Below, one piece after another: positions 9,983 to 30,810 of a stretch of 37,500 nucleotides of DNA. The notes under the pieces were generated by a model. It had not been told where the DNA came from, searched no databases, and saw nothing but the letters and a program-made list of their open reading frames with translations. The stretch covers positions 135,001 to 172,500 of the forward strand of contig NZ_AP017312.1 in NCBI RefSeq assembly GCF_002355375.1, in the 5' to 3' direction. The position numbers were made by a program, and so were the translations under genes. The stretch is from Aneurinibacillus soli. Lineage in GTDB: Bacteria; Bacillota; Bacilli; Aneurinibacillales; Aneurinibacillaceae. Positions within the stretch are counted from its first letter, which is position 1; each line of letters starts with the position of its first letter.

Positions 9983-10834
9983 CTATATGGATAGAGAGTT
10001 AGATAACTCTTCTATTTTTTTCGCATTTTCCTCTAATACAATCATCGACGCACTAATCTCTTCTGTAGCAGCCGCTTGTTGTTGCGCGTGAGCATCGATT
10101 TTAAAGATCCCTTCTGTCATTTTTTCAACTGAATGTAAAATTTGATTCATTTTGTTAGAAATGTCATCCAGACTTCCCTTTGTATCCTGGGCTAACTTTC
10201 GTACTTCGTCCGCCACCACAGCAAATCCCCTGCCGGCGTCTCCCGCCCGCGCTGCCTCAATCGCAGCGTTCAATGATAATAAATTTGTCTGATCAGCAAT
10301 ACGCTTAATCAGCTTAAGTACATCCCCGATCATCATGATTTCAGACTTTGCTTCTCCGGAAACCGCGTTCAAATCACGCACCGCATCCGCTAACCCGGAA
10401 GCCCCCATTGCGATTTCTTCACTAGCTTTCGTTGTACTTAACGAGGTCTCAATCAGATTAGAAGCCATATCAATGAGTGCCTGTTGTTTGGTTAACGGAG
10501 ACGTAATGCCCAGACAGCCAACAACCTTCCCATGAGAGTCCATAACGGGAATCGCTAGTCCTTGATAAGCAACTTGAAAAGATGATTCTGCCTTTGTGAC
10601 CATTTGTGACATTCTTTTTTTCGCGTTCATTACTTGAGCAGACAAAACATTTGTTGGGATTTTATCCCCTACTTTAAGCTTCAGATGAATGTCACCCTCC
10701 AGGTATCCTAAAACCTCCAGTTCCCGATTTACAACAAGCACTGTACTGACCTGATTAAAAAGTTCATATATATGCTTTCCTGCTTCAATCGCATACTCTA
10801 GTTCCTTGCATATCTCTACTGTTTGTGTGCTCAT
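9983..10834 (-). CDS. Soluble methyl-accepting chemotaxis protein (YfmS-like), riboswitch-controlled
   Basis: 283 residues with no membrane segment. The N-terminal 110-120 residues form a small sensory domain ([40 protein letters not shown]), like the PAS/Cache-like input of B. subtilis YfmS (286 residues). The rest is an MCP signalling domain with a complete hairpin tip ([20 protein letters not shown], about 179-198, then [15 protein letters not shown]), so it can bind CheA/CheW. It is a cytoplasmic receptor that modulates flagellar taxis from an internal signal. The ATG at 10834 has an excellent AAGGAGG site. The distinctive feature is its leader: a c-di-GMP-I riboswitch followed by a terminator, so transcription should respond to c-di-GMP. 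Confidence 0.92.
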
Positions 10835-10901: not shown

Positions 10902-10940
10902 AAAAAAGGGCCATTTCTCGCATCGCAAGAAATAGCCCCG
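10902..10940 (-). terminator. Riboswitch expression-platform terminator
   Basis: On the minus strand GGGCTATTTCTTGC pairs over 14 bp (three G-U pairs) with GCGAGAAATGGCCC across a 3-base loop, then TTTTTT (10907-10902). It lies 7 bases past the riboswitch P1 helix and 68 bases before the chemoreceptor start. Its left arm (GGCTATTTC, 10937-10929) could instead pair with GAAAGCC (10958-10952) at the edge of the aptamer, a candidate antiterminator. Confidence 0.9.
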
Positions 10941-10946
10941 AAATAA

Positions 10947-11059
10947 GATAAGGCTTTCGGTAACCCGGCTGTCATAGTTTACAAGAAACCATAGACCCGT
11001 GGCTTTGCGTCCTCACCTTTCAATGAGTTTGCCATTGTCGATGCACAATAATCTTTATC
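10947..11059 (-). promoter_or_regulatory. Cyclic di-GMP-I (GEMM-I) riboswitch
   Basis: The minus strand contains the GEMM-I core: GGCAAAC, a GAAA tetraloop (TTGAAAGG), the conserved GGACGCAAAGCCACGGG, the GGGTCTA strand, then CAGCCGGGTTACCG. P1 can form from GATAAAG (11059-11053) and CCTTATC (10953-10947) with one mismatch. By alignment to the V. cholerae Vc2 aptamer, the base contacting one guanine (G20) is a G here (complement of 11032). The C of TTACCG (C92 equivalent) and the intercalating A (A47) are kept, so c-di-GMP rather than cGAMP is the expected ligand. It precedes only the soluble chemoreceptor gene. With the terminator at 10902-10940 it most simply acts as a transcriptional OFF switch; that direction is inference. 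The 10835-11186 gap holds nothing else I can support, and no clear promoter was found upstream. Confidence 0.95.
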
Positions 11060-11186: not shown

Positions 11187-12188
11187 TCACCACATCATAC
11201 TATCTGGCAATCTGTCATATTTCTGAATATGTTCGTACGTTCTTTGCAAACCACCGCGTGGCTTCACCCCTGCCCGTACCGCATACTCGTACTCTCGCAC
11301 CCATTCCTTTTTCAATCCATATCGCAGCAACCACCGCAATAATACATACATTTTCACTTCGTCATCACGACCCACATAATACGCGTTGAACTGATGAATT
11401 CCTTCCTCATAGTCTCCTAGAGTAAACTGGATAATGAGCACTGCCGTGATCAACTCTTCGATTCTTGCATGAAACTGCTCAGGCTTTTTCGCAACTTTTT
11501 GCTCAAGTACACACTGCACCAATAAACTCTCACACTGTTCAAGAATCTCTTGTTTCTCTGTTTCTTGCTCAGCGAATGTAAGCAACTCGTCTAGTAAATC
11601 CGTCCACATCAGTTCCTGATCAGTATCATAGTTAAAAACGAGTGCAACCGCATCTGCCGTCCATTTCGCAAGCGGTTCTCTTGCCCTTTTCAAAGCCAGC
11701 ACATCCCGGAAAAAATAACGCTGATCAATCATAATCGAACGGAACGGATCTTCTGTATTAAAGAGATACTCTCCACAAGCCCGACAGATAAGAATATAAA
11801 GCGCTTCAAACAATCTGGCTGGTTCCGCTCCATATTTCGGATCACCCGCAAACTTCTGCAATTGATCCATAAATCGTTTCACAACAAAACGCCACTTCGA
11901 ACGCTCTTGCTTCGGAATGACTCGGTTCGGTGCCACATAATACTGGTTGTCCACATTTGTGATAAACTGTTCGATTTCCAACTTCACCTGCATAAAGTCA
12001 GGTTCCATCACAACTTTTTTATCACTTTTTCGTTCGACGAGAAACGCATTACAATCTTTCACCAGCTCATCTACTTGTTTTTCTTCTATTACTTTTTTGG
12101 GTATCATCTTATACATCTCTACAATAATCGTTTGCATATCCTTCTCAGATAGCTGTGATACCCGATTACGCAATTCAACGATTTTCAT
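11187..12188 (-). CDS. Unrecognised 333-residue helical protein
   Basis: I do not recognise this gene. From the ATG at 12188 (MKIVELRNRVSQLSEKDMQ) it encodes 333 residues with no signal peptide or membrane segment. An in-frame extension to 12239 is possible but would overlap the promoter-like TGCTATACT. The sequence is almost entirely helical, with charged N-terminal helices and then repeated Glu/Leu-rich helices (EILEQCESLLVQCVLEQK, ARIEELITAVLIIQFTLGDYEEGIHQFNAYYV) resembling TPR- or HEAT-like helical pairs. The ribosome-binding site is weak. It stands alone, transcribed with the operon direction, between the riboswitch region and truA. Confidence 0.7.
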   Translation of the reverse strand: MKIVELRNRVSQLSEKDMQTIIVEMYKMIPKKVIEEKQVDELVKDCNAFLVERKSDKKVVMEPDFMQVKLEIEQFITNVDNQYYVAPNRVIPKQERSKWRFVVKRFMDQLQKFAGDPKYGAEPARLFEALYILICRACGEYLFNTEDPFRSIMIDQRYFFRDVLALKRAREPLAKWTADAVALVFNYDTDQELMWTDLLDELLTFAEQETEKQEILEQCESLLVQCVLEQKVAKKPEQFHARIEELITAVLIIQFTLGDYEEGIHQFNAYYVGRDDEVKMYVLLRWLLRYGLKKEWVREYEYAVRAGVKPRGGLQRTYEHIQKYDRLPDSMMW

Positions 12189-12212
12189 AAAAATTCCAGC
12201 CTTTTTCTTTTC

Positions 12213-12221
12213 AGTATAGCA
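12213..12221 (-). promoter_or_regulatory. Extended -10 promoter for the 333-residue protein
   Basis: TGCTATACT on the minus strand is an extended -10 element, 25 bases upstream of the chosen ATG. No good -35 hexamer accompanies it. Confidence 0.4.
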
Positions 12222-12362
12222 TGATCTACATGAGTCCATACCTTAATAGAAAACTCTAGATCTCTTACTAACGCCTCATTGCCGATTTTCAAGCAAGAAG
12301 TGCTGCATGAAGTAGTAAGTGGGAAGAAAAAAGGAGAGAATACACAGGAACGATTGCAAGGT

Positions 12363-30368: not shown

Positions 30369-30719
<351 letters not shown>

Positions 30720-30725
30720 TCAGCG

Positions 30726-30770
30726 AAAAAACCTGACAACCGGCCATGGCATCGGAGCCTGGTGTGTCAG
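30726..30770 (-). promoter_or_regulatory. Terminator-like attenuator in the rpsJ leader
   Basis: CTGACA pairs with TGTCAG (30770-30765 with 30738-30733), with ACC/GGT and further GGC/GCC pairs inside, followed by GTTTTTT on the minus strand (U-run 30731-30726). It lies between the promoter and rpsJ, 49 bases before the start, so it could attenuate the whole operon. The 30678-31032 gap holds this, the promoter below, and the plus-strand promoter of the next small gene. Confidence 0.65.
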
Positions 30771-30810
30771 CAACCTCCCGCGTCATCGCGTCTACAAACC
30801 AACATTCAAA

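Follow-up and report, generated by a model that had tools for sequence, protein, structure and literature searches.

We found that a c-di-GMP-I (GEMM-I) riboswitch precedes the gene of a cytoplasmic chemoreceptor in Aneurinibacillus soli and that it probably works as a transcriptional OFF switch of this receptor, in the P-A-T-H manner of Cd1. The window analysed is the whole stretch of 37,500 nucleotides (NZ_AP017312.1, positions 135,001 to 172,500), and all positions below are counted within it (table 1). At low c-di-GMP, strand A of the leader would leave P1a and pair with strand T before strand H is made; with A:T formed, polymerase would pass the U-run and the receptor would be produced. 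At high c-di-GMP, the ligand would keep A in P1a, perhaps also paired to the 5' leader as a closing helix, and with A held in this way T would be free for H and transcription would stop. The scheme supposes that the aptamer binds c-di-GMP, that the response runs in this direction and that a short-lived A:T hairpin could delay the terminator for long enough. The element offers a clear case, open to experiment, in which c-di-GMP would govern how much of a single cytoplasmic receptor is made. If it is a true OFF switch, the receptor would be one of the low-c-di-GMP, presumably planktonic, state.

An earlier note on this DNA had claimed a complete GEMM-I core with the equivalents of G20, A47 and C92 and had asked for a covariance-model search with RF01051. 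Infernal found one c-di-GMP-I aptamer on the minus strand of the window, matched over model positions 1-87 of 87 with 89.4 bits (E 1.2e-16 for the window), far above the gathering score of 35, and all three core bases were located when read from the sequence of that strand (G20 at 11033, A47 at 11006, and C92 at 10960). Their numbering was mapped via the equivalence of Bc1 G11/A38/C81 with Vc2 G20/A47/C92, which is itself a prediction of the Bc1 authors (PMC11218506). A GAAA tetraloop lies at 11021-11018, and no broken pair is marked in either helix aligned to the model. The tetraloop and the receptor helix are present in the sequence and their tertiary contact is predicted. The assignment of the aptamer to the c-di-GMP-I class holds, and the ligand would be expected to bind it.

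Table 1. Features of the riboswitch leader and its gene (positions in the window).
Feature	Positions	Strand	Basis
c-di-GMP-I (GEMM-I) aptamer	10956..11043	minus	RF01051, full length, 89.4 bits
Candidate closing helix P0, 5' strand (AAGAU), possible partner AUCUU 10949-10945	11051..11055	minus	suboptimal fold
P1a 5' strand (UCG), possible partner CGA 10959-10957	11039..11041	minus	listed pairs
Strand A, candidate antiterminator 5' strand (GAAAGCCUU), overlapping the P1a 3' strand	10950..10958	minus	pairing calculations
Strand T, putative switching strand (GGGGCUAUUUC): part of the terminator left arm, partner of A	10929..10939	minus	
Strand H, terminator right arm	10907..10921	minus	
Six-U run of the terminator	10902..10907	minus	sequence
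Soluble chemoreceptor, 283 aa: N-terminal domain (about 1-115) and MCP signalling hairpin (about 115-282)	9983..10834	minus	

The terminator, which the earlier note had given as 14 bp with six U, was found as described, with a stem (10939-10907) of 15 pairs including G-U, or 14 without the outermost, around a loop of 3. Its best hairpin together with the U-run has -22.8 kcal/mol, a value reached by none of 1000 dinucleotide-preserving shuffles of the 120 nt downstream of the aptamer (best shuffle, -16.3). Since it begins 16 nt past the aptamer end and does not overlap the aptamer, the terminator is compatible with the bound state. The ATG of the receptor gene lies 121 nt past the aptamer, with AAGGAGG ahead of it. 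No convincing promoter candidate was found for the leader; the best sigma-A-like match in the window (8/12) lies elsewhere than that of genome G006, which carries the only close orthologue of the receptor (96% identity).

Strands A, T, and H are named as in PMC9262584, and A:T is the antiterminator of the earlier note, slightly lengthened; in its original form, GAAAGCC (10958-10952) can pair with GGCUAUUUC (10937-10929) across a 2-nt bulge. What stood of that claim is that the strands can pair and that GAA overlaps P1a, so that the pairing does touch P1; the pairing itself proved to be weak. The A:T duplex of the window has -8.5 kcal/mol (p 0.147 against shuffled A) and ranks 17/49 among partners. 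Before H is made, its AGCC:GGCU part has a probability of 0.26, and the probability of GAA:UUC, the only part (3 pairs) that overlaps P1a, is at most 0.14. The window's own A:T pairing is weak and not exceptional. P1a, with 3 pairs in the window, is itself predicted with a probability of at most 0.03 there in the absence of ligand. A hairpin CCGAAA/UUUCGG (10960-10955 with 10943-10938) competes with A:T in the window. As a second antiterminator it was rejected, because most of the terminator stem is spared, because both structures coexist in the best fold, and because the 3' strand reads UUUCAG in G006, which breaks one pair.

The comparison with other leaders was based on 93 inspected loci, that is, 92 among the RF01051 matches listed for 61 genomes including that of the window (those listed for G000-G015, G034, and G053 and one of three for G035, the listed matches of other genomes being left out) and one from the window genome. 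As in the window, the A:T pairs are all possible in the orthologous leader of G006 and in L080 and L085, the leaders of CheY-like genes (PF00072) in sister species, with one A-U replaced by G-U. In these three leaders, the AGCC:GGCU part has a probability of 0.92-0.96 before H and the GAA:UUC part, which is the P1a overlap, one of 0.41-0.57; P1a without ligand stays at or below 0.19 in each of them, as in the window. When the last four aptamer bases (CGAA) were withheld, the platform lost about 1.2 kcal/mol before H in all four leaders, while the same withholding cost about 5.3 kcal/mol in the relatives L105 and L123. An antiterminator strand shared with the closing helix is possible in four leaders and accompanied by an aggregate signal, but its P1a overlap is 3 pairs, worth about 1.2 kcal/mol.

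With regard to similarity to the window, the platform of L085 comes 2nd and that of L080 4th, each above the best of its 50 shuffles. Because the aptamer of L080 ranks only 13th and that of L085 only 30th, this likeness of platforms does not establish a common descent of the whole element. The leader of G006 agrees with the window in 85/88 columns of the aptamer, 49/52 of the platform, and 66/70 from the platform to the ATG (121/199 columns upstream); the whole leader being equally alike, this identity does not point to selection on the switch in particular. For the aggregate signal, 54 of the 93 leaders proved to have a terminator at least as stable as -8 kcal/mol, and the 39 without one were left out; 5 more (including L004) were dropped because the terminator lay inside the aptamer or less than 6 nt past its end. 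In the remaining 49 leaders, the mean energy of the own A:T pairing was -5.85, against -4.63 (sd 0.28) for permuted T arms (0/5000), and the count was also 0/5000 for 41 nonredundant leaders. A stretch of the aptamer taken as a control, from 27 to 10 nt ahead of its end, prefers its own T arm as well, with a smaller effect (-7.03 vs. -6.39, 24/5000), and therefore part of the A:T signal may be due to relatedness. In single leaders, the shuffled-A test gave p up to 0.05 in 16 of 49 (up to 0.01 in 5), the window not being among them. Taken together, these comparisons suggest that an OFF platform of the A:T form is supported for the group and plausible for the window. The OFF model of the earlier note was therefore borne out in part: the terminator lies outside the aptamer, the competing strand overlaps P1, and the pairing is possible in four leaders, while the weakness of A:T in the window speaks against it. 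The set of 93 leaders may serve as a start for separating ON from OFF platforms by sequence.

Once H exists, the full terminator is more stable than A:T, with a difference of over 10 kcal/mol; the switch would therefore have to act kinetically and depend on slow refolding. The antiterminators of Cd1, too, are described as stable only for a while, with refolding over time (PMC9262584). There, A pairs with the aptamer 5' strand or with T, and T pairs with H, which is the scheme predicted for the window. Cd1, a GEMM-I OFF switch of flagellar genes in Clostridioides difficile (PMC9262584), differs in its target gene.

It is rather unlikely, yet deserves to be weighed, that the element is a constant attenuator, that is, that the aptamer binds c-di-GMP while the strong terminator fires nearly always and expression hardly responds. 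The energies are in line with this, since the terminator (-22.8 kcal/mol) far exceeds A:T (-8.5 kcal/mol) and withholding the P1a strand shifts the platform so little before H. There is also a precedent in Bc1-mcpE of the Bacillus cereus group, which is reported to give no response in vitro and no response of expression to cellular c-di-GMP (PMC11218506). Against a constant attenuator, A:T can form in four leaders, and the preference of 49 leaders for their own pair suggests that these platforms are kept as switches in the group. The likeness of the G006 leader does not help to choose, since it extends over the whole leader.

Bc1 is also among the closest known arrangements. It shares with the window element a c-di-GMP-I aptamer whose core bases agree, termination at an intrinsic terminator, and a downstream MCP gene. 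Bc1 has two terminators within a platform that can reach 220 bp, and in its native form it hardly responds (PMC11218506); in the window one terminator was found, the ATG follows the aptamer by 121 nt, and the gene encodes a soluble receptor. Of 155 genomes of the B. cereus group, 98.7% carry Bc1-mcp (PMC11218506), and the link between a c-di-GMP riboswitch and an MCP gene has thus already been published for that group. Bc1 binds c-di-GMP and its expression is described as unresponsive apart from a slight response with Zur (PMC11218506); since it binds without changing expression, a response of the window element cannot be taken for granted. Among the papers listed for c-di-GMP riboswitches with chemoreceptors or MCPs, Bc1 was the only close case recognised by title and abstract start, and none of those listed for Aneurinibacillus riboswitches concerned this element by title.

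The candidate closing helix P0 would close the bound aptamer and make the aptamer and A:T mutually exclusive, but its support is slim. It requires a transcript start upstream of 11055, and the best sigma-A-like match of G006 (9/12) would start transcripts within or after the P0 5' strand, that is, too late. A single double change, from G-C to A-U, speaks for P0 in G006, where the calculation also makes the helix energetically costly. The P:A pairing ranks 28/93 in the window and 60/93 in G006, and its signal over all 93 loci is the weaker one (31/5000). At the end of T, the constrained energies of the window are -32.8 to -34.1 kcal/mol for A:T against -29.5 kcal/mol for P0 with P1a, a gap that a tightly bound ligand could reverse.

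The opposite direction is very unlikely. In an ON switch, the ligand would block the pairing of the P1b 3' arm with 10953-10945, free A, and favour antitermination. AAGGUGAGG does pair with CCUUAUCUU in a fold of -52.3 kcal/mol, which comes within 0.4 of the best one, and in B. subtilis, reporters are said to be switched on by Bc1 (PMC11218506); by inspection of the sequences, however, the P1b-arm pairing is unavailable in L080 and L085, and strand A is not shared by the terminator, unlike in the ON switch pilM (PMC9262584). It is highly improbable that the aptamer has 3',3'-cGAMP or some other cyclic dinucleotide as its ligand, for despite an A at position 20 in a number of relatives, including L085 with its window-like platform, both the window and its orthologue in G006 carry G20, the base typical of c-di-GMP-binding members (PMC6274999).

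Considering that G20A is the change used to study cGAMP binding (PMC6274999), the distribution of this base among the relatives is of interest in itself. An A replaces G20 in 16 of the 93 inspected loci, all in Gram-positive genomes (L085, L092 with two, L093, L094, L098, L103, L105, L108, L109, L114, L116, L122, L138, L054, and L055), and a C replaces it in one more (L137). Riboswitches for cGAMP have been described from Geobacter or Gram-negative bacteria. In sister species, L080 (G20) and L085 (A20) each precede a CheY-like gene of the same type. Such A20 aptamers in Gram-positive relatives, together with the difference between L080 and L085, are a more interesting lead than the window element. 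A wider picture seems quite unlikely as a whole: related terminator platforms behind GEMM-I aptamers would set the soluble receptor, the CheY-like protein, and membrane receptors in Aneurinibacillus and its order, G20 and A20 would switch between leaders of the same CheY-like gene, and c-di-GMP would read out the chemotaxis make-up of one species, a role that in the sister species may fall to cGAMP or to both dinucleotides. Two of the A20 leaders, L054 and L055, lie before a 485-aa protein, which in L054 is an aldehyde dehydrogenase (PF00171), and a soluble chemoreceptor-like gene follows farther downstream.

The gene behind the window's riboswitch encodes a soluble chemoreceptor, as the earlier note had proposed. 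PF00015 matches at residues 135-279 (E 1.6e-28), and the highest 19-residue hydropathy is 1.09, so no membrane segment is expected. By signalling domain and hydropathy the protein is a soluble MCP, and its coupling to CheA/CheW is predicted. A structure model from a 3-sequence alignment (mean pLDDT 61.8) shows a long helical hairpin (115-196 and 200-282), and the small N-terminal domain is of low confidence (pLDDT below 50 over residues 43-92). A PDB search with the N-terminal domain gave no convincing match (best E 0.014, short), and a single-protein search of named genomes with the receptor gave no relative among 24 stretches. The N-terminal alignment contained 2 relatives among 117 stretches, from Aneurinibacillus danicus and A. 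aneurinilyticus. In 61 genomes including that of the window, 11 matched the receptor at E up to 1e-30, the next after G006 having 44-47%; an orthologue occurs in only 2 of the 7 genomes of the genus, the window's included. The receptor may be akin to the YfmS-like small orphan chemoreceptors of Bacilli. These are small MCPs that combine an N-terminal domain with a short signalling hairpin. YfmS is named as an orphan receptor in PMC5137498.

GEMM-I aptamers are common in this group, with RF01051 present in 44 of the 61 genomes. The 4.12-Mb single-contig genome of the window has 4 matches: the window element, L004 before an MCP with a membrane segment, L003 before an HD-domain protein (PF13487) with an HD-GYP motif, and L002 without a clear gene. 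Its domain matches comprise 50 MCP, 17 GGDEF (16 over the cut-off), 9 EAL, and 6 PF01584 (CheW). In 21 of the 93 inspected loci, from 12 genomes, the 800 nt that follow the aptamer contain the start of an open reading frame with an MCP motif, so that an MCP behind a GEMM-I aptamer is routine here. By hydropathy, 16 of these 21 MCPs (the window's included) have a membrane segment and 5 look soluble. Such units, with the aptamer likewise upstream of an MCP, occur in Aneurinibacillus and its relatives (L004, L067, L068, L070, L093, and others). The window element is a genuine riboswitch whose family is known, as is the kind of gene behind it, and its arrangement is not unusual.

Some other features of these loci were recorded. 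Ten aptamers (L002, the second of L068, L076, L078, L079, L081, L096, L111, L112, and L113) end in CGAAAGGAG or CGAAAGGGG; the terminator search returned no terminator for them, and few have a clear gene. As L096 has an open reading frame with a transposase domain (PF01527) 12 nt downstream, some of the aptamers with these endings may be translational or mobile. A U stands for C92, at a fixed offset from the aptamer end, in 6 of the 93 loci (L003, L088, the second aptamer of L092, L111, L112, and L113), and these six end in AUCGAA. In the window, truA and the riboswitch are separated by a gene for a 350-aa protein with no Pfam match (11187-12239, minus strand). In G006, what precedes the riboswitch resembles, by eye, the end of truA, and thus this gene seems to have been gained in one genome or lost in the other. 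Moreover, an S10-Clostridia ribosomal protein leader was found at 30691-30794 on the minus strand of the window (44.9 bits, cut-off 35.1).
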